Origin: a virus
DNA: 27,519 nt
Direction: 5' to 3' (one strand)
Virus record (IMG/VR): IMGVR_UViG_3300044799_000138
Location: 1 to 27,519 of that record
Below the pieces are notes generated by a model. It did not search any database and had not been told where the DNA came from. It saw only the letters and a program-made list of their open reading frames with translations. The first letter of the stretch is position 1. Each line of letters begins with the position of its first letter. This document shows, piece by piece, positions 1,517 to 17,704 of this stretch. The translations under genes and the position numbers were made by a program.

Positions 1517-2198
1517 ACCGCAATGGCTTAAGGCACGCAAGAAAGACGGCTACATTGAACTTCGTGAAGTGCAAGGCGACAGCGAAGTAATCAAGATTCC
1601 CGAAGGAAACGACGTTACTGTGGTTAAAGCAACGCACTTCATAGCCAAAGACGTCAACGGCGCTCTGTATCCCATAAGCAAAGACGTTTTCTTCAAGACC
1701 TACGAGTTCGTGAAGCAAGAAGAGAAGGCGTCGCCACCAGACTTTTTCAAAGAGTTAACCATTCACAGAAGCATCACGCTGAAGAAAGGCGACGACTATG
1801 AGAAAACAGATTTCACGTTGACAGTTGATTTGTCGGCTTTGGCAGAGCAGCGAAGCGACGTTGTGGAAGACGCTAAAAACCGTGTGCTGGACCTACTTGA
1901 CAAATGGACTGACGAGGTTAAGGGAACAAGCGACGTGCAAGAAAGCGTCAAGAACATTCCAAAACTAGACTTAGCGAAAATCAACAGTCTACCATGGAAG
2001 ACCTATCAGAAAGAAATTGCGAAGCCAGATGAGGCAGCATGGGTTTACCGCAACCACGAAAGCGCAAAAGAATTGTCAGCAGCCATTGAGAAGGCTGGGA
2101 AAGACGGCTTAACCATCGGAAACATGAACTACACGTTCAGCGGAGACCAACAGCAATTCTTGAACCGTAAACCGTTGGGGAAAGTGGGGAGGAGGTGA
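1509..2198 (+). CDS. hypothetical protein, early operon, upstream of PCNA
   Basis: 229 residues, not recognised. The N-terminal 70 residues are beta-rich (KIPEGNDVTVVKATHFIAKD, then ALYPISKDVFFKTYEFV), the middle has a charged segment with a long helix (about 105-140, SDVVEDAKNRVLDLLDKW), and the C-terminal part has conserved-looking PWKTYQKEIAKPDEAAWVYR and a basic tail. No transmembrane segment or cysteine cluster is present. ATG at 1509 lies inside the end of the AbrB gene, and its TGA (2196-2198) overlaps the PCNA ribosome-binding site, so its expression is tied to PCNA. A nucleic-acid role is only inferred from context. Confidence 0.75.
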   Translation: MSEPQWLKARKKDGYIELREVQGDSEVIKIPEGNDVTVVKATHFIAKDVNGALYPISKDVFFKTYEFVKQEEKASPPDFFKELTIHRSITLKKGDDYEKTDFTLTVDLSALAEQRSDVVEDAKNRVLDLLDKWTDEVKGTSDVQESVKNIPKLDLAKINSLPWKTYQKEIAKPDEAAWVYRNHESAKELSAAIEKAGKDGLTIGNMNYTFSGDQQQFLNRKPLGKVGRR

Positions 2199-2203
2199 AA
2201 GAG

Positions 2204-3085
2204 ATGAGTGAATCAGAGACTTTACCACAAAACACGCAGCCAGACCCAGTTCAGCAAAACACAGAGCAAATAACAGTTCCACAGCCAACGGTGACACCAG
2301 CGCCGCCAGAACCAAAACACGCACTCTTTGAGTGGAACGAAAGCCAATACTTCAAGAAAATCCTGCAGCTTATCGACGTGTTCAGCGACGAAGCCGTTTT
2401 TGTCGTAGACGCAGAAAAGTTGAGCATGACAGTTATGGACCCTTCAAGAGTGTCTATGTTGACTTTAACACTTCCAAAAGAGGCGATGGAAGAGTTTAAC
2501 GCAACAGAAGTTTTGCCAAAAATGCTGTTCACGGTGAACGTCACAGACTTGGTAACGTCGGTTTTCAAGAACACTTACAAGGGTGAGAGTGTGCGCTGGC
2601 TTGTTGAAGACAGTTTTCTGGAGACCGTTTTGAGGGAACGTGTGAAACGCACTTTCAAACGTGTGCTCCTAGAAAATCCATCTGACGAATCAGAATACAG
2701 TAGTCCACAGCCAAAAATCACGCACACGTTCAAAGGAAGATTTGTTCTCGAAAACTTGAACACGATATTCAAGGACACCAGCGGAGGCGAAGCGGTTAGG
2801 CTCATAGGCAACAGCGAGAAACTTCTGTTCAGAGTGGACGACCCATTCTACGAATCAGAAGCCAAGAAAGGAGACGACACAACATTAAGTATTGAGTGTA
2901 GCGAGCCAGAAGTCAAGTCAACATATTCAGTCAGTTATCTCAAGGAAGCGTTGAAAGCGTTGTTTGCTTTGTCGCAAGTAGTCACTATTTCCTACGCAAC
3001 GGATATGCCTTTGAAACTGGAAGCGGACCTAGAAAACTACGGAACAGCAACCATCTGGATAGCGCCACGCATTGAAACGGAGTGA
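2204..3085 (+). CDS. PCNA-type DNA sliding clamp with N-terminal extension
   Basis: 293 residues. From about residue 38 the protein follows the archaeal PCNA fold: ALFEWNESQYFKKILQLIDV, then VDAEKLSMTVMDPSRVSML (the typical 'e-G-l-x-x-x-x-M-D-P-S-r-v' segment), and near the end ISYATDMPLKLEADL followed by TATIWIAPRIE, the usual PCNA C-terminus. It should form a trimeric ring that tethers polymerase and other replication factors. The first 37 residues are a low-complexity Q/P/T-rich extension not found in ordinary archaeal PCNA (about 245-250 residues). I chose ATG 2204 because GGAGGTG lies at 2191-2197; a GTG at 2195 is an alternative. No viral polymerase is visible, so it presumably recruits host replication enzymes. 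Confidence 0.9.
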   Translation: MSESETLPQNTQPDPVQQNTEQITVPQPTVTPAPPEPKHALFEWNESQYFKKILQLIDVFSDEAVFVVDAEKLSMTVMDPSRVSMLTLTLPKEAMEEFNATEVLPKMLFTVNVTDLVTSVFKNTYKGESVRWLVEDSFLETVLRERVKRTFKRVLLENPSDESEYSSPQPKITHTFKGRFVLENLNTIFKDTSGGEAVRLIGNSEKLLFRVDDPFYESEAKKGDDTTLSIECSEPEVKSTYSVSYLKEALKALFALSQVVTISYATDMPLKLEADLENYGTATIWIAPRIETE

Positions 3086-6735: not shown

Positions 6736-9636
6736 TCACCCGACGACATTTCCGAATCTGATTCTTTTGCTAGTTGCTGGAGCACCCGAAGATGATGCTT
6801 CCACAATAACGGATTTTAGCCTATCTGCAACTAAGTTCGCTGCAAGTTCTGCTGTGGCTCTATCGGCTGAGCCTTCGACAACAACTAAGGGACTGTTAAT
6901 TTGAAGAATCGGCGGAGTCGGCGTAGGAATGGCTGGTGCTGGTGGTATCGTTGGAATTGGCAACGCTGGCGTTTCTAGAATCGGCGTAATTGGCAGCGTT
7001 GGAATTACTAATCCTTCACCTGCTTTCGGTGGCTCTGGCATGTAACGTTCTCCGCCAACACCTTTAGTTTCAAGCAGCGCATACAACGCTTCCCAACGAC
7101 CTTGCAAAAGTGCTATCTGCGCTATCTCATTTGCAACGCCTTGTGCTGTTGTGGCGTTAATTGTGTTCCAAGATTCTTGAATTATCATTTGCTTCCATGC
7201 TTCAAGTTGCTGAATCTTAGCCATAATATCGGCGTTTTCGGCTTCCAATATTGCTGCTTCCTCAGTTTTGCCTGCTGCAACGAGTTCAGCAATTTTCGCT
7301 ATGTTAGCGTCGTATTCTTGTGTCAAATCCGCTAAGTAACCGTCTATCTGTTTAACCATGTCGGCTTGCTTGTTTGTGCTGCAGTCGACGAAGGCTTGAA
7401 TGTTATCTTGCGCTTGACCAAGCAAGCCAGCAGTGATTAGGTCGTTGGTGTCTGTGACTAGCGTATCCCAAGAAGCCTTAGAATCCTTTGTGATGTCGTA
7501 GAATTTGCCAGATGCACAGTTTTTGAATGCTTCGAGATTTGCTTGCGCTCTGTCGATGAGTTGTTCTTTAATGGTTTTTGGCACTTGAGCGGTTGCTGCT
7601 TCAATCGCTGCCACGGCTTCTTGAATGATTTTTTCGGCGTCTTGCCAACTGATGCCCCATTGAGCGGCGAATTGGCTGATTAGGCTTTCAGCCATGCTCA
7701 GTTTAGTTTGAGTATCTATGTTCTGGTTTTCAAGAATGTCTATGAATTCTTTGGCAAACCCTTTTTGGCTTTCAATGAAATCTGCGGTTTTGGCTGTGTA
7801 GTTCTCGAAATAGTAGGTTGAAATTGTGGCCAGATGCTCTTGCATGATTCGTTCTGCTTCAGCGTTTGCCGCTTCAAGTTGACGGTTTTTCTCGTCTAAC
7901 AGGCTTTGTTGTTCGTTAACGTAGTCTTCCAAGATTTTTGCTGCCGTGTCCCATGATACGCCCCATAGGTCAGCGAATTGCTGCACAATGGCTATGGTCA
8001 TGTCGGTGCTGAGTCCAAGCCATAAATTATATGCGTTTCCGTAGAGTTGTAGGTCGCTAGTGAATTTCTCTGTTTTCTGTGTGACACGGTTGAAGTAGGC
8101 GTTTTCAAGCCAGTCAGCATGTTTCTGAAAGATTTTCTCTTGTTCTTCCGATGCTTTTTTGGCTGCTTCAGCAAGTTTGTCCTCTTCTTTAATGATGTCT
8201 TTTACTGCGCCGTAAACTGTTTTTGCAGCGTCGTCCCAAGTCATATTCCATTGAGTAGCGAAATCTTGAATGATTGTTGCTGATTGCTGAAGGCTTTGGT
8301 CACTTGCTAGAGTTGTGTCTTCTAACACGTCTCTAACTCTTTGCGCCGCAGAAACAACGGATTCTTGCCAAGCAGTCGTTGCTTGCGTAAATGTTTCAAA
8401 GTAGAATTTGTCGACCGCTGCCATGCGTTCAAGTTCTACAGTTCGCTGTTTCATTGATTGAACGTTATCGTTCATCGTGCCATTCTGTTCCAGTAAGGCG
8501 TCTCTTTCAGCCTTCAATGCGTTTATTCCGCTTTCTCTCACACGGGTTTGGTATGACATTGAGTTTATGTAACTGTTAAGATACGTCTCTGCTCTCTGGA
8601 TTAAGTCGTTCAATTCCGCAAGACGTTGATTGTTCTTGTTAATGACTGATTCTCCAGTTCCTATGGTGCTTTTCAATAGGCTTATTCTGTCGGTTAGTTT
8701 GGCTGCTGAATCATAGGAAGCGTCCATAGAGACTTGAAACGCAGCCATCGCTTCGTTTGCTTTAAGAGTTTCTTTGGAAAGTTCTGTTTCTGCTCCAGCA
8801 GCGAGTCGGCTTTGCATGGCTAAAGTGACTGTGATGGCTGCCATGACAGCGATTAAGCCAATGCCCAATGTAAGCAACCCGATTTTCACAGTTAACGCAG
8901 CGTTGTGGATCCAGTCGGCTGCGGCAGCGAGTTTCGATGCGACTGCTCCAGCAATTTCAACTATGGTTTTCTTAACGCTTGCGCCAGCGCTAGCAATTTT
9001 CGCTAGAACGCTGCCCTCTTCCGCTAGTTGAAACGCCTTCGTTATTCTAATGATGCTGTCTAAAGCAGTCATTGAAGTCGGAATCACAGTTAGAGCCGAC
9101 TGAAGTATAGTTTCGTTGAAATTTCCAGCCATCATGTTCGCTCTTTCAACGGCTACTCCGTAACGTTCTTGAGCATTCGCTAAGTCTTGTGCTGCCAGCC
9201 TCGCTTGTTCGCTTGCTGGACCAAACTTTTCTACAGCAACATTATAGCGAACTTGAGCATCTTCGACAGCGTTGGCTGACTGTTTAACCATAAGGTTTGC
9301 TCGGTCCACTTGAACAGCGTAGTCGGCTACTCGGTCGTAAGCGTTGTATATGCTGAATGCTGCGGTTGCCAGATTGTTAAATGCAAAAACCGTGTCTTTC
9401 GTGCTTACTTGCATTTTGTCTTGGCTGTTCGCTACTTTTCCGCTTGCTTTGTCAAGTTCTGAACCTAGTTTTTCAGCGCTTTTAGCCATGTTGTTTGTTG
9501 TGGTTACGACGTTTTCTCCAGTTTTTTCAAGTCCTTGTAGGCTATTCGCTATTTTTTCGACTGCAGCCACAACTTGAGGGCTTGCCTTATCGTCCGCTGT
9601 TATTTCGATGCCGATTTTTACGCTCGTTTTGTTCAC
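6736..9636 (-). CDS. tail tape measure protein
   Basis: 966 residues, the longest gene. N-terminal MNKTSVKIGIEITADDKASP is the usual start of tape measure proteins, followed by a coiled-coil region (to about 200), a hydrophobic segment at about 250-275 (LTLGIGLIAVMAAITVTLAM) for membrane passage, long alpha-helix, and a Pro-rich C-terminus with PLVVVEGSADRATAELAANL. It sets tail length and is ejected during infection. Residues about 410-665 hold three copies of a roughly 100-residue repeat (see findings). At about 1.5 A per residue the tail would be near 145 nm. Start is GTG 9636; it overlaps the stop of the frameshifted chaperone (GTGA), so translation is coupled. Confidence 0.9.
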   Translation of the reverse strand: MNKTSVKIGIEITADDKASPQVVAAVEKIANSLQGLEKTGENVVTTTNNMAKSAEKLGSELDKASGKVANSQDKMQVSTKDTVFAFNNLATAAFSIYNAYDRVADYAVQVDRANLMVKQSANAVEDAQVRYNVAVEKFGPASEQARLAAQDLANAQERYGVAVERANMMAGNFNETILQSALTVIPTSMTALDSIIRITKAFQLAEEGSVLAKIASAGASVKKTIVEIAGAVASKLAAAADWIHNAALTVKIGLLTLGIGLIAVMAAITVTLAMQSRLAAGAETELSKETLKANEAMAAFQVSMDASYDSAAKLTDRISLLKSTIGTGESVINKNNQRLAELNDLIQRAETYLNSYINSMSYQTRVRESGINALKAERDALLEQNGTMNDNVQSMKQRTVELERMAAVDKFYFETFTQATTAWQESVVSAAQRVRDVLEDTTLASDQSLQQSATIIQDFATQWNMTWDDAAKTVYGAVKDIIKEEDKLAEAAKKASEEQEKIFQKHADWLENAYFNRVTQKTEKFTSDLQLYGNAYNLWLGLSTDMTIAIVQQFADLWGVSWDTAAKILEDYVNEQQSLLDEKNRQLEAANAEAERIMQEHLATISTYYFENYTAKTADFIESQKGFAKEFIDILENQNIDTQTKLSMAESLISQFAAQWGISWQDAEKIIQEAVAAIEAATAQVPKTIKEQLIDRAQANLEAFKNCASGKFYDITKDSKASWDTLVTDTNDLITAGLLGQAQDNIQAFVDCSTNKQADMVKQIDGYLADLTQEYDANIAKIAELVAAGKTEEAAILEAENADIMAKIQQLEAWKQMIIQESWNTINATTAQGVANEIAQIALLQGRWEALYALLETKGVGGERYMPEPPKAGEGLVIPTLPITPILETPALPIPTIPPAPAIPTPTPPILQINSPLVVVEGSADRATAELAANLVADRLKSVIVEASSSGAPATSKRIRFGNVVG

Positions 9637-10150
9637 CTTTTGCGAGTGAAATACCAGTCAAGCCATTTTACTAGAAACTGAAACTGGAACGGCGACAGTT
9701 TGCCTAAGTCTTCGAGTTTGTATTGTGGAAACTCGTGTAGAATCAAGCCTATCGTCTGGGCGTCTCCGCTGGCGCTAATCCAGTCTCGGATAGTCTCAGT
9801 TTTTTCGGCAAAAAATCTGAATGAGCCATCACAAGTTTTAGCAACTCGTTTGTTGCGTCCATTGGAAATTCTCGAACCATGTCAACTGTCAACTCTGGAC
9901 AGCCAGCCTTCAGACTACGCCAAACCATTTGGACTGCACGTTCTTTGTTGTCCTCAATTTTGCCGAGTTCCGTGTAGTCCGTGACCGTTAACACGCTAAT
10001 AACAACTTCACCTAGTTCTGGATGCTTAACTCTCTTGAATTCTCTAGCGTCTTCTAGCAACTGTTTTGGATTGAATTTTTTGCCTACTTTCTTCGCTTGT
10101 TTCTGCTCCCAATCTTCCAGTTTCTTCTTATACTCTTCTACCTTGCTCAT
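9633..10150 (-). CDS. tail assembly chaperone fusion made by -1 frameshift (gpGT-like)
   Basis: The product reads 114 codons in the frame of the shorter chaperone, slips back one base at TTTTTTG (9815-9809), then reads 58 codons in the new frame to TGA at 9635-9633, 172 residues in all. The extension begins AEKTETIRDWISASGDAQTI and ends LVKWLDWYFTRKR; it is protein-like, has no ATG of its own, and no stop between 9809 and 9635. Its stop overlaps the tape-measure GTG. This is the arrangement of lambda gpG/gpGT-type chaperones, which wrap the tape measure during tail assembly. Frameshift efficiency cannot be seen. Confidence 0.75.
9749..10150 (-). CDS. tail assembly chaperone (gpG-like)
   Basis: 133 residues, mostly helical: MSKVEEYKKKLEDWEQKQAK, a basic region, then VISVLTVTDYTELGKIEDNK and a C-terminal MVREFPMDATNELLKLVMAH. 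Position immediately before the tape measure, size and helical content fit the abundant short tail chaperone. ATG overlaps the upstream TGA (ATGA). The last 19 residues (after the slippery site) are read only when no frameshift occurs, ending at TAG 9751-9749. Confidence 0.75.
   Translation of the reverse strand: MSKVEEYKKKLEDWEQKQAKKVGKKFNPKQLLEDAREFKRVKHPELGEVVISVLTVTDYTELGKIEDNKERAVQMVWRSLKAGCPELTVDMVREFPMDATNELLKLVMAHSDFLPKKLRLSETGLAPAETPRR
9809..9815 (-). promoter_or_regulatory. -1 ribosomal frameshift slippery heptamer
   Basis: On the minus strand the sequence in frame is GAT TTT TTG CCG: T TTT TTG is a perfect X XXY YYZ heptamer. A second run, G AAA AAA, follows eight bases later in the same frame and could also slip. 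Downstream CTGG (about 9786-9783) and CCAG can form only a weak hairpin, so no strong stimulatory structure is obvious. Confidence 0.7.
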
Positions 10151-10353
10151 TTCCCTAAATCACGCTCCTTTTCCATGTTGCTTTTTTTTGTTAGATACAG
10201 TCTCTTAGCAGTCACCGTTTGATAGATGACTCTAAGCGGTTGGCAGTCAGCCTTGATTATTTTTTGTAGTTTCTCGATTTCTTCGAGTGATCCATAGGCT
10301 ATCATGCCAAAGTTAAGGTAAACGTCACTGTTACTTGGTTTCTTTTCAACCAT
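10147..10353 (-). CDS. small hypothetical protein before the tail chaperone
   Basis: 68 residues: MVEKKPSNSDVYLNFGMIAY, a helix EEIEKLQKIIKADCQPLRVI and a basic tail. It stops by ATGA overlap with the chaperone start and has GGAG upstream of its ATG. It lies between the tail tube and chaperone genes, where siphoviruses often keep small assembly proteins. No family recognised. Confidence 0.65.
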   Translation of the reverse strand: MVEKKPSNSDVYLNFGMIAYGSLEEIEKLQKIIKADCQPLRVIYQTVTAKRLYLTKKSNMEKERDLGK

Positions 10354-10382: not shown

Positions 10383-10772
10383 CTATTGTGCTCCGCTAGT
10401 GAATGTTTTGCCTTCGCCTCTCACGCTTTCTAGGACTACGCCTTCTTGTTCAATGGTCATTTCCCAGTTGGTTAATACGCAGTTTGCGAGCGTGTATTTC
10501 TTGAGTGAGCCGCCTGTGCCTTCTGGTCTAAATTCAAGAGTGACTTTGGTTTTGGCTATTACCTTGTCGACGTATGTGCTGTCAATCCACATTTTGTCTA
10601 CGGAAAACGGATAACTAGAATTACCATATTCGAGAACTGCTGGGTCAGCGCTGCCTAACTTGTAGTCTTTGATTGCTCCAGCGTCGATGCCTACTCTGCA
10701 GCCTTTAGCGTATCCGATTTCAACTGAATCCATGAGAACGACGGCTGTTCTTCCTATTTCGGGTAACGACAT
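10383..10772 (-). CDS. putative major tail tube protein
   Basis: 129 residues with a strong ribosome site (GGAGGTGAAAGGAG) just upstream, the best in the region, as expected for an abundant virion protein. Beta-rich: PFSVDKMWIDSTYVDKVIAK, KVTLEFRPEGTGG, then CVLTNWEMTIEQEGVVLESV and GEGKTFTSG, the kind of strand pattern seen in tail tube proteins ('v-x-W-x-m-x-v-x-x-e-g-x-v-x-x-x-x-x-x-a-k'). Position between the terminator and chaperone genes agrees. Assignment is from pattern and place. Confidence 0.65.
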   Translation of the reverse strand: MSLPEIGRTAVVLMDSVEIGYAKGCRVGIDAGAIKDYKLGSADPAVLEYGNSSYPFSVDKMWIDSTYVDKVIAKTKVTLEFRPEGTGGSLKKYTLANCVLTNWEMTIEQEGVVLESVRGEGKTFTSGAQ

Positions 10773-10808: not shown

Positions 10809-11081
10809 TTATGGGGACGGCACAAACTTGCCTATGACAAAGCCGAAGCACCATTCAGCGATGCCTTCTGTTACAACGGTCACACGGTTTCCAACGACTG
10901 AGAGTTCAATTTCGGTTCCGTCGGCTGCTTTGAACAGTTTGATTAAGTCAAAAGTGTTGAATTTGTGTAGGTCAAAGAATTTGCCAGTTTCAGCGTAGAC
11001 TTGGAAAGTGAACAGCACGTTGTCGATTCCTTGGTCTGGCGCTAGATAGGACTCGCTTTGCTGCGTGATTACGCTGCTCAC
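10809..11081 (-). CDS. small beta-rich structural protein
   Basis: 90 residues from GTG 11081 (VSSVITQQSESYLAPDQGID); the frame is open further upstream to 11171 but that would overlap the preceding gene by nearly 90 bases with unlikely residues, so I prefer GTG just after its stop (11086-11084). It continues VLFTFQVYAETGKFFDLHKF and ends AEWCFGFVIGKFVPSP. Likely a head or tail decoration or tail-tube-associated protein; family not identified. Confidence 0.55.
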   Translation of the reverse strand: MSSVITQQSESYLAPDQGIDNVLFTFQVYAETGKFFDLHKFNTFDLIKLFKAADGTEIELSVVGNRVTVVTEGIAEWCFGFVIGKFVPSP

Positions 11082-11083
11082 GC

Positions 11084-11347
11084 TTACACACTTCCAACAA
11101 CGTGTATGTAGACCAGTTCGTCCGTTAGCGCTGCTTGTGTTATGGTGACTACTCCGCCCGATTTCGTGCATGTGACAACTGAGCCATCACTTGCTTTGGC
11201 GGCAGCAGCGTAGACAAGTGTGCCTATGTTGAATGTGACTGTTTCATTCGTTGTAACGGTTGCTATCGCTAACTGTGTGCGCAGTTTGTTCGCAACGGTT
11301 TGTGCTTGTTTTACATCGGCGAACGTGATAGGGTCTGCTTCAACCAA
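11084..11347 (-). CDS. small beta-rich structural protein
   Basis: 87 residues from a TTG start with GGAG 11 bases upstream (11360-11357). After a short helix (ADVKQAQTVANKLRTQLAIA) the rest is beta-structure with VTFNIGTLVYAAAAKASDGS and GGVVTITQAALTDELVYIHV. It lies between tail terminator and tail tube. The family is not recognised; a tail tube accessory or neck protein is plausible. Confidence 0.55.
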   Translation of the reverse strand: MVEADPITFADVKQAQTVANKLRTQLAIATVTTNETVTFNIGTLVYAAAAKASDGSVVTCTKSGGVVTITQAALTDELVYIHVVGSV

Positions 11348-11400
11348 TGTTTTTTTCTCCTATTGTTTTTTTACATGGTTAATCCATGACTGTGAATTTG

Positions 11401-14738: not shown

Positions 14739-15620
14739 CTAGGATAAACCCGTAAGTTCGCAAATAGCCGTTGGCTGATTAACTCTAGGAACGAGAACCT
14801 CGTAGACTTTGCCGATGGTGTTCTGGTCTTTATCTTGCCAAGTGTATTGAGTGGTGTCTTGGGCGATGCCTAACTCGAAGTTGCCCTGTTCAGCGGAAAT
14901 CACAAGAGCGCTTGTCGTAGCGCCAGCGCTGCTAAATACGCTGTCGCTGACAAAGATTTTGTCAACCATTTTCAGCAATACTGTTCTGACTATGTCACTT
15001 GTGTTCGTGTTGACTTGGCGTAGTCTAGCGTTCAATGAGGCTCTAAGAATTAGGGCGTAGTTTTCATACCATCCGTCAGTCTCAAGTTCTGTGATGGCTG
15101 CGCTTATGTCCGTGTAAATGTTGGCGATTGTGGACCATACGCCAGCGGTTGCTTTCGTGTTTCTTCCAGTTGCAGTTGCGAGTCCTTGAATTCCAAGTGC
15201 TTTCCAACCAGTATATTCACCAGTTAGCAGTAGCTTGTCTTCTTCTTCAGCAACTTGGCGAGCAGCGTTTTCCACGTTAAGCGTGTCGATTGGAATGCCG
15301 CCTCTTCGAGCGGCGATGATGTCTCGCCAGAACATCATGAATCCTTTGCTCAATACTGGAACTTTTACGTCGGCTTCTGCTAATTGCGTGTGGTCAAATA
15401 GGTTTACGATGCCTTCCATGTCTATCGTTGCTTCGCTCATGTCGGTCTCCGTGTATTTGCGCCAGTTCTTGATTCCAACGTGTGGCAATGGAACACGGGT
15501 AAAGAGTTGTCTGCCAATGAGTTTTGGTCTCACGGCTGCGATGATTCTTTCGTCGATGAATCTGATTTCTTCGTCGGTTAACTGTCCAGTTTCAATTCCT
15601 ACTCTGCTTAATCTCTGCAT
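14739..15620 (-). CDS. major capsid protein (HK97 fold, encapsulin-like type)
   Basis: 293 residues. N-terminal helix (LTDEEIRFIDERIIAAVRPK) and IGRQLFTRVPLPHVGIKNWR, EATIDMEGIVNLFDHTQLAE, AARQVAEEEDKLLLTGEYTG, IYTDISAAITELETDGWYEN then YALILRASLNARLRQV match the encapsulin/linocin-like branch of HK97-fold capsids as I remember it. It forms the icosahedral shell. There is no long delta domain at the N-terminus; a separate scaffold-like gene is nearby. Neighbours (portal, protease, decoration protein) agree with the call. Confidence 0.8.
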   Translation of the reverse strand: MQRLSRVGIETGQLTDEEIRFIDERIIAAVRPKLIGRQLFTRVPLPHVGIKNWRKYTETDMSEATIDMEGIVNLFDHTQLAEADVKVPVLSKGFMMFWRDIIAARRGGIPIDTLNVENAARQVAEEEDKLLLTGEYTGWKALGIQGLATATGRNTKATAGVWSTIANIYTDISAAITELETDGWYENYALILRASLNARLRQVNTNTSDIVRTVLLKMVDKIFVSDSVFSSAGATTSALVISAEQGNFELGIAQDTTQYTWQDKDQNTIGKVYEVLVPRVNQPTAICELTGLS

Positions 15621-15636: not shown

Positions 15637-16131
15637 CTAAGCTGCCGCCTTCATGTCTGCTGACTTATTCAGCAACACCATAACGTCTGCGTCTGCACTT
15701 GTCGGGTTAACTGCTTCCCATGCTTGACCGATACGCATGCCTTGAGCGCCCATCGCTCCGACGGCTTCCTTCTGGACTTTTCCGTCTGCTCCAGAAACTA
15801 GATAGTCGCCTTGAACGACGGCTGGCGATGCCATTCCGCCGCTTGTGAGTTTGCACACGACGATGCATGGTCCGCCTACGATGACTTTGGCTTGGTCGCC
15901 TACAGCATAGGCAGTTGTGATTAGTTTGTCTGGTGCTTCCATGAGGACGCCGTGTATGTTGTTTGCTTTTGCTCCACACTCTTTGATTTCGCCCGTGTTA
16001 GTGTCCAAGATAACAAGTCTTTTAGGCAGCATTTTGGCTGCTGTAGCGTTTGCGCCTATTTCCATTTCAATGATGAATGGTGTTCCAGCGACTAAGACGC
16101 TGTTTGCTGGTTTAGTTAGATGTTGTGGCAT
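15637..16131 (-). CDS. capsid decoration protein (DUF2190-like)
   Basis: 164 residues, beta-rich: NSVLVAGTPFIIEMEIGANA, IHGVLMEAPDKLITTAYAVG, QAKVIVGGPCIVVCKLTSGG, AVVQGDYLVSGADGKVQKEA and RIGQAWEAVNPTSADADVMV. The order 'iGv-x-x-x-x-x-x-G-d-x-v-x-v-x-x-x-G' and 'i-G-x-a' fits the small decoration proteins that sit on the capsid surface, and such genes usually lie directly before the capsid gene, as here. Confidence 0.7.
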   Translation of the reverse strand: MPQHLTKPANSVLVAGTPFIIEMEIGANATAAKMLPKRLVILDTNTGEIKECGAKANNIHGVLMEAPDKLITTAYAVGDQAKVIVGGPCIVVCKLTSGGMASPAVVQGDYLVSGADGKVQKEAVGAMGAQGMRIGQAWEAVNPTSADADVMVLLNKSADMKAAA

Positions 16132-16141
16132 GGTTGTTCAC

Positions 16142-16522
16142 CTATTTCTTTTTCCACGCTTCAGCGTAGAGGTCTGGCATTGTGAAATGTGGGTTTTGGT
16201 TTGCTGCGTCTCCAGCGGGTAAAGGCTTGCTGGCATTTTTGGCTAAGCGTAGGGTTTTGAGGTGTGCAGCCATTTCTTCAGTTGATATTTTGGCTAGGTC
16301 TTCTTTCGTCAAGTTGGTGCGTGCCATGAGTTCTGAGCCTAGGTTCGCTCGAACTTGCGCCTCAATGACGCCATTGGCTTTTCCCAGTTGTTCTGTTAGG
16401 CTATCAACTTGTGCCTTAAATGCGTCTCGTTCTTGCGTGGTTTTCTGCAGTTGAAAGGCTATCTCGTCGATAGAAATTTTTGTCAAATCTTTAGTCTCGT
16501 TTCCTTTAGATTCTTCTGGCAT
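16142..16522 (-). CDS. scaffold-like coiled-coil protein
   Basis: 126 residues. Residues about 15-75 form a heptad-type coiled coil (SIDEIAFQLQKTTQERDAFK and AQVDSLTEQLGKANGVIEAQ), followed by a second helical region (LTKEDLAKISTEEMAAHLKT) and a P-rich, basic end (AEAWKKK). Location between protease and decoration gene and coiled-coil make a capsid scaffold the most likely role. RBS AAAGGTGA lies nine bases before the ATG. Confidence 0.65.
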   Translation of the reverse strand: MPEESKGNETKDLTKISIDEIAFQLQKTTQERDAFKAQVDSLTEQLGKANGVIEAQVRANLGSELMARTNLTKEDLAKISTEEMAAHLKTLRLAKNASKPLPAGDAANQNPHFTMPDLYAEAWKKK

Positions 16523-16726
16523 TTTCTTTTTTCACCTTTTTAGGTTTGGTTTGAATTTTGCGTTACGCCTTCATTTGCCGCAAATCTGGTTTACGCCAAT
16601 TTCTAATAATGTAGCGACTAGGAGAGCCGTGACGCTTCAGCGAGTATGCTTTCATACATTACTGCCAAAGAGAAAGGAGAATACGTCACGGCTATCAAGT
16701 GGAAGAGAAATAATCAAACCACTTGA
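16523..16726. other. 204-base non-coding gap with long inverted repeat
   Basis: Between the prohead protease and scaffold genes, where the surrounding genes overlap or nearly touch. It contains AGCCGTGACG (16625-16634) and its perfect complement CGTCACGGCT (16684-16693), enclosing the hairpin GTATG-CTTT-CATAC (16644-16657) and followed by AAGTGG/CCACTT (16698-16703/16719-16724). A 26-codon plus-strand frame (16647-16727) that starts MLSYITAKEKGEYVTAIKWK lies across it without a ribosome site. No other gene is supported. Confidence 0.5.
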
Positions 16727-17704
16727 CTATGAACTCGGCAGCATTTCCAACAGTTTTTCTGTGCGCTCAATCTCGTCTTCTGGAGTCTTTTTGCTGTTGG
16801 AAATTGTTGCACCTACGCCACCGCTAGGAACGAGAACTATTGCAGCAACTCCGCCGCTTGTGGAATCAACAATGACTTTGGCTAAGGCTAAAACTGCGTC
16901 GCCGCCTCCATGCGCATTGAACCATGCTTTCGCTTTAGTCATGTCAAACTTGGTTTTGTCGAAGATGTATGACTGGACCTCTGTGCCGACTTGACACTTT
17001 CCATTTGCCCATTTGCCTTTAGGACAAGCGATAACCGCTTGGATTCCGCTTGTTATGTCGATGGTTCTGAAACTGTCGGGGTCATACTTTTCTTTGTTGC
17101 CGTGTCCGCTGCGTATGCTGTTCTCTGTTGTTTCCCAAGGGTCTGCTGCTACTTGTGCCTCGCCATAGTCATCAACTTCCAGAGTGCATGGGATACCTGC
17201 TTGTGTTGCTCTGCCAACGGGAACGCCGACGGCTACATGGTTAATTAAGATGTCACGTTGAACGAAGTCGTATGATTGACCTTCATGCACACCTTTTTGC
17301 AAGTCTTCTCGATAAAGGAAGCCTATGCTCACGTCCTTGCGTTTTCCAGTTTTCACGTCGACTAGAAATTCGGGTTTGTTGGATAGTTTGAAGAGGTGAA
17401 CCATGCCTCTTACGCCTTTGATTCCTTCGTCCCAAGTGATGTTCGTTGTTTTTCCAGAGATGTCTCTTGGACTAGTCAAAATAGGCAAGTCAACGGCTGC
17501 GTCTGGGTGCTTTCCGCTTGTGGTCCAAGCGCCCTCGAAGGTGAACAGACTTTTCCGCAGTTCATCTTCAGGTCTGAATGCTTTGCCTTGCTTGTATGGT
17601 AGCACGCCTACTCTAGCGAGGACTGCAGGTATACGGATCTCGTTTTCGTCTTCCTCAATTTTTGTGGCGTCTAACTCAACTTGACTGAATGCTATTTTCT
17701 TCAT
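16727..17704 (-). CDS. prohead protease (DUF2213-like)
   Basis: 325 residues. The N-terminal 165 residues match the DUF2213-type head maturation protease: H66 (SGKHPDAAVD), S126 (KRKDVSIGFLYRED), and H156 (YDFVQRDILINHVAVGVPVG) are candidate catalytic residues of the herpesvirus-protease-like fold. It would cut the scaffold and perhaps capsid parts. The C-terminal 150 residues add a Pro-rich linker and a Cys-containing domain (CPKGKWANGKCQVGTEVQSY, then FDMTKAKAWFNAH) of the type often fused to or near phage portal or protease genes. ATG overlaps the upstream TGA. Confidence 0.85.
   Translation of the reverse strand: MKKIAFSQVELDATKIEEDENEIRIPAVLARVGVLPYKQGKAFRPEDELRKSLFTFEGAWTTSGKHPDAAVDLPILTSPRDISGKTTNITWDEGIKGVRGMVHLFKLSNKPEFLVDVKTGKRKDVSIGFLYREDLQKGVHEGQSYDFVQRDILINHVAVGVPVGRATQAGIPCTLEVDDYGEAQVAADPWETTENSIRSGHGNKEKYDPDSFRTIDITSGIQAVIACPKGKWANGKCQVGTEVQSYIFDKTKFDMTKAKAWFNAHGGGDAVLALAKVIVDSTSGGVAAIVLVPSGGVGATISNSKKTPEDEIERTEKLLEMLPSS

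Follow-up and report, generated by a model that had tools for sequence, protein, structure and literature searches.

Does the gene between the tail tube and the tape measure of this tailed virus specify one protein or two? The DNA that we analyzed (the window) is a stretch of 27,519 nucleotides, positions 1 to 27,519 of IMG/VR record IMGVR_UViG_3300044799_000138. The first-pass annotation, made from this DNA alone, proposed that a tail chaperone gene on the minus strand contains a programmed -1 frameshift like that of lambda gpG/gpGT. Comparative tests support that proposal.

Organization of the tail module

The zero-frame chaperone ORF (9749-10150, minus strand) runs from an ATG at 10150 to a TAG at 9749 and would specify a gpG-like protein of 133 amino acids. 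The sequence GAT TTT TTG CCG is present on the minus strand as reported, and within it the slippery heptamer T_TTT_TTG (9815-9809) is in register with the zero frame at Phe113-Leu114. A -1 shift at this heptamer leads into 58 open codons that end at a TGA (9635-9633). This extension (9633-9809, minus strand), a putative gpT-like domain, begins with a second reading of the last base of the heptamer. Downstream of the shift site, 19 zero-frame codons and the TAG make up a dual-coding overlap (9749-9808, minus strand). The extension has no ATG, and its TGA overlaps the GTG of the tape-measure gene (9636-9634, in the sequence GTGA); on both points the first-pass annotation was right. A single internal TTG lies at 9746, beyond the start of the conserved domain.

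The tape-measure gene (6736-9636, minus strand) encodes 966 amino acids from its GTG start, and its N-terminus has homologues in 57 viral loci. On the other side, a small conserved ORF (10147-10353, minus strand) is directly upstream of the chaperone, overlaps its start by 4 nt, and has homologues in two related loci (L003 and L004). It is followed by the probable tail tube gene (10383-10772, minus strand), which we assign from a weak match to Phage_tube_2 that does not reach the curated cut-off, and from synteny that is kept in L003, L008, L018, L023, L028 and Bathyarchaeia proviruses. L008 has the tail tube gene in two tandem copies (15954-16829) directly upstream of its chaperone.

The 112 nt between the chaperone stop and the tape measure (9637-9748) had been described as the only sizeable stretch of the tail module that would be non-coding without the shift. 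This needs a minor correction. The segment 16523-16726 is also between ORFs (204 nt with no minus-strand ORF of at least 60 amino acids, inside the head module), and the apparent gap at 11172-11400 is mostly occupied by a TTG-start ORF (11084-11347, minus strand). That ORF and the one listed after it (10809-11171) share 88 nt, and one of the two starts is probably wrong.

The virus, its host and its relatives

The record encodes a terminase, a portal, an HK97-type capsid protein and a neck protein, as well as a PCNA-like sliding clamp (2195-3085, plus strand) in which both PCNA domains score above cut-off. The clamp had no tblastn match in the phage collection, and the first-listed match of the terminase there was a Methanofastidiosa virus (26%). 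The chaperone is found in 8 of 257 Bathyarchaeia genomes. Because relatives of the capsid protein in named genomes come only from Bathyarchaeota MAGs, and because a provirus in a contig of 2,202,057 bp has capsid, neck, tube, chaperone, extension and tape measure in the order of the window, the host is very probably a Bathyarchaeia archaeon. Together with the PCNA gene, these relatives bear out the earlier assignment to an archaeal virus.

The head module has two further features. The major capsid protein (14739-15620, minus strand) matches the Pfam family Linocin_M18 (encapsulin) with an E value of 1.3e-28, far better than its match to any viral capsid family, and this match bears on the relationship between encapsulins and HK97 capsids. 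In L009, three tandem homologues (8441-9900) of the window gene at 15637-16131 are directly before the capsid gene.

We collected relatives from IMG/VR and from Bathyarchaeia genomes as homologues of the tape measure and the chaperone. Direct searches of IMG/VR with the chaperone, the terminase and the whole tape measure gave no match; the chaperone is too diverged for a direct scan, and the tube and chaperone alignments had no stretch conserved enough to scan with. Most early capsid relatives (e.g., L006, L019 and L021) had no chaperone homologue within their record. Capsid relatives did lead to five loci holding the tail module, and an alignment of those five tape-measure N-termini with that of the window led to the 57 viral loci. 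HMM profile searches covering all three forward frames found the chaperone in 56 of these loci and the extension in 53. The Bathyarchaeia genomes and a further viral record brought in 14 additional cases. Several of the loci are closely related, so locus counts are not independent. A scan of all loci for further -1 overlaps upstream of a long ORF yielded, apart from the chaperones, only unconvincing candidates.

Conservation of the slippery heptamer

The window by itself is weak evidence for a programmed shift, because one heptamer in such an overlap could be luck. In other genes of these loci, in-frame T_TTT_TTN has a background of 2.2e-4 per codon and any in-frame X_XXY_YYZ a background of 3.1e-3 per codon. 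The chance of a heptamer in one overlap of 40-odd codons is then about 1% for T_TTT_TTN and about 13% for any canonical heptamer. The case therefore rests on the relatives, where T_TTT_TTN was observed in 48 of 53 overlaps and expected in 0.4.

Comparison with related genomes had been suggested in the first-pass annotation, and it favors the frameshift: in 68 loci the corresponding position is occupied by a canonical X_XXY_YYZ heptamer, and a homologous extension is behind it in the -1 frame. The heptamer is T_TTT_TTN in 60 of them (ending in TTA in 28, TTC in 14, TTG in 9 and TTT in 9), C_CCT_TTA in seven (the L038 clade, L049 and L103) and A_AAT_TTT in one (L099). The viral set forms 28 clusters at 70% amino acid identity, 27 with T_TTT_TTN and one with C_CCT_TTA. 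The final base varies freely, and the six before it are either fixed or exchanged as a set, as tandem slippage predicts.

Codon choice at the site points the same way. It is always TTT followed by TTR or TTY, whereas elsewhere TTT makes up only 43% of Phe codons and TTR 33% of Leu codons; therefore, neither protein frame explains the codons used. Over the 70% clusters, chance would produce this choice with probabilities of 0.43^27 (about 1.6e-10) and 0.335^19 (about 9e-10), figures that assume independent clusters, a rough approximation. Selection acts on the heptamer as nucleotides.

Several loci depart from the common arrangement, and one of them, L102, serves as a natural control. In L102 (Bathyarchaeia genome G096), the chaperone homologue has GGG TTT CTA at the site and no extension; the tape measure is directly next, and its ATG shares bases with the zero-frame TGA. 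Heptamer and extension were lost together. Loss of the heptamer in a relative had been named at the outset as a finding that would count against a frameshift, and L102, the lone such relative reported, is also without the extension. L049 has a diverged -1 extension behind its C_CCT_TTA. One near-identical pair, L090 and L094, runs counter to this pattern: it keeps the -1 extension with only the half site T_TTT_CGG at the aligned codon, which perhaps allows slippage of a single tRNA.

Entry into the -1 frame

Relative to the chaperone, every one of the 53 HMM-detected extensions in viral loci lies in the -1 frame. That frame is open from the heptamer itself in L093 and from one codon earlier in many other loci; in L095 the zero-frame stop comes one codon after the heptamer. 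Taken as a whole, these relatives leave room for the shift only from the heptamer to one codon beyond it. On the assumption of a shared mechanism, the -1 frame must therefore be entered at the heptamer.

Alternatively, the extension might be a small independent gene that carries a start codon, or ribosomes might reach it by re-initiating after the chaperone stop. The TTG at 9746 and internal starts in some relatives are compatible with such a gene. However, in 64 of 68 loci (all but L046, L059, L070 and L103) the interval from the upstream -1 stop to 10 codons beyond the slip site contains no ATG, GTG or TTG, and independent translation would leave the conserved heptamer unexplained. The whole -1 frame is free of starts in L018, L040, L073, L082, L083, L084 and L092. 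The first-pass annotation had pointed to an extension encoded separately with its own start as a contrary arrangement, and none was found among the relatives. We regard independent translation of the extension as exceedingly unlikely.

Selection on the extension

A codon substitution analysis, also suggested in the first-pass annotation, favors the frameshift as well. In 38 close pairs, which are not independent and include a few extension comparisons that look recombinant (L061/64/65/66), average pN/pS was 0.20 for the chaperone and 0.18 for the extension past the zero-frame stop. Average synonymous divergence in the doubly read stretch, for the two frames in the same pairs, was 0.16 and 0.14 compared to 0.32 and 0.36 where only one frame is coding; in both frames the overlap has roughly half the synonymous change. 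The extension is under purifying selection as a protein, equal to that on the chaperone. AlphaFold gives a compact four-helix model for the 58 amino acids of the extension (mean pLDDT 93).

T runs are error-prone, and two frames joined at such a run might reflect a homopolymer error in assembly or sequencing, or a decayed pseudogene. The same -1 arrangement, however, recurs with different heptamers in 68 loci, which come from many metagenomes and MAGs, and both frames are under purifying selection. Conservation refutes this explanation, and we give it a negligible probability. Comparative sequence evidence instead establishes a conserved -1 architecture in which the heptamer is selected as nucleotides, the extension is selected as protein and the new frame is entered at the heptamer.

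Search for stimulatory RNA elements

A stimulatory element, either a downstream structure or an upstream Shine-Dalgarno site, is common but not obligatory for -1 frameshifting. Minimum-free-energy z-scores for pseudoknot-free structures in windows of 40, 60, 80 and 110 nt gave no conserved downstream structure (mean z +0.35 to +0.58 relative to shuffles). If anything, the downstream RNA is less structured than the shuffles. There was also no conserved Shine-Dalgarno site upstream, and an SD-like motif was present in only 3 of 53 loci. Low-efficiency shifting without stimulators seems to occur in some tailed phages (PMC5009743). Since we did not find stimulators, an unaided heptamer may be enough here, at low efficiency. 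We lean toward the view that in Bathyarchaeia viruses a freely changeable heptamer (T_TTT_TTN, or in some lineages C_CCT_TTA or A_AAT_TTT) works without a stimulatory RNA element.

Identity of the chaperone

The AlphaFold model of the chaperone has a pLDDT of 78. In a Foldseek search of BFVD with this model, the best named matches were tail assembly chaperones (prob 0.97-1.00); the best E value, about 2e-3 with prob 1.00, is above the 0.001 line. An uncharacterised protein of Methanobacterium virus Drs3 was also among the best matches (prob 1.00, E about 2e-3), and the chaperone of Halobacterium phage ChaoS9 was lower in the list. A PDB fold search with both halves returned nothing significant, and Pfam and PHROGs had no family for the chaperone. 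These empty searches would also be consistent with a real frameshift in some other tail-module protein. However, a position flanked by the tail tube and the tape measure is what defines the gpG/gpGT-type chaperone, and the best named BFVD matches are tail assembly chaperones; we therefore think another tail protein very improbable. From position and predicted fold, the best reading is a chaperone of the gpG/gpGT type. In the phage collection, the tape-measure N-terminus matched just one protein, which is annotated as the tape measure of the Nitrososphaera provirus Pro-Nvie1. The annotated gene upstream of that tape measure is for a gp10-like protein, and the annotation shows no frameshift.

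Discussion

We consider it very likely that two nested proteins are made from this gene by -1 tandem slippage at T_TTT_TTG, in the manner of gpG and gpGT. Slippage by the ribosome, its efficiency and the roles of both products are what we infer from the conserved arrangement. Most ribosomes would stay in the zero frame and make the gpG-like tail assembly chaperone of 133 amino acids. A minority would slip back one base with tRNA-Phe in the P site (on TTT) and tRNA-Leu in the A site (on TTG). The slipped tRNAs would re-pair with TTT TTT and reading would continue for 58 codons, giving a gpGT-like fusion of 172 amino acids with an added helical domain. By analogy to lambda (PMC5009743), the common part may coat the product of the adjacent tape-measure gene, the rarer C-terminal domain may recruit tail tube subunits, and the efficiency of slipping may set the ratio of the two products.

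Slippage could also occur in transcription: RNA polymerase might add a base on the T run, generating a mixed pool of mRNAs and the same protein outcome with no shift by the ribosome. Most sites do have six Ts, and nine loci have seven. However, the sites of the L038 clade, L049 and L103 (C_CCT_TTA) and of L099 (A_AAT_TTT) have no long run and yet fit tandem tRNA slippage, and eight or more Ts are found in none of the heptamer contexts listed. Polymerase slippage in bacteria usually requires longer runs. The C_CCT_TTA and A_AAT_TTT lineages speak against transcriptional slippage as the common mechanism, and we judge it very unlikely.

The likeness to lambda in layout and place, first drawn from the window, holds up. 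In both systems, and in long-tailed dsDNA phages more widely, a short chaperone ORF has the tail tube on one side and the tape measure on the other, the -1 shift is near the 3' end, and the extension ends at or just before the start of the tape measure. Neither system has an evident need for a stimulatory signal. In contrast, sequence similarity to lambda is undetectable, the host here is archaeal, and the heptamer is T_TTT_TTN rather than the G_GGA_AAG of lambda.

The first-pass annotation regarded such shifts as little documented in archaea. This is fair, although the idea is not new; -1 shifts have already been proposed in haloviruses. For the same gene, they were proposed in HVTV-1 and HCTV-1, -2 and -5, and a +1 shift was predicted in HSTV-2 (PMC5009743, PMC8211752). 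Halovirus Hardycor1 (HrrHc1_110/115) has a -1 heptamer near the 3' end of the chaperone, upstream of the tape measure; that heptamer is G_GGA_AAT, not T_TTT_TTN, and two genomes were compared there (PMC7911831). The haloarchaeal tailed viruses thus have a predicted frameshift in the same gene in euryarchaeal halophiles, with homology to the genes described here not established. In the Bathyarchaeia viruses, the shift is backed comparatively by a large and diverged set. In Saccharolobus solfataricus, a -1 shift in fucA1 was shown by experiment, at A_AAA_AAT and about 10% in vitro (PMC8211752), and archaeal ribosomes are therefore capable of a -1 shift. fucA1 encodes a cellular enzyme and not a tail protein, and its site is a single case with a stem-loop and rare codons. 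A 2021 review counted one experimentally shown programmed frameshift in Archaea and predictions in a few haloviruses (PMC8211752). Frameshifting goes unmentioned in the surveys of Bathyarchaeia viruses and proviruses that our literature search covered.

The G-T kind of frameshift is known; the host group, the type of heptamer and the unusual depth of comparative support are the additions made here. Conservation over some 28 clusters in the viral set alone, replacement of the heptamer and one joint loss make ribosomal slippage nearly certain without culture, in an uncultured archaeal class. The loci also offer sequences of 70-200 nt that could be tested as they are in archaeal translation systems. 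In genomes of Bathyarchaeia viruses, the second chaperone product is overlooked by gene callers. If these heptamers do work without a stimulatory element, no larger case of programmed frameshifting in archaea would have comparative support, and the tail chaperone gene would have its first case outside the haloarchaeal viruses.
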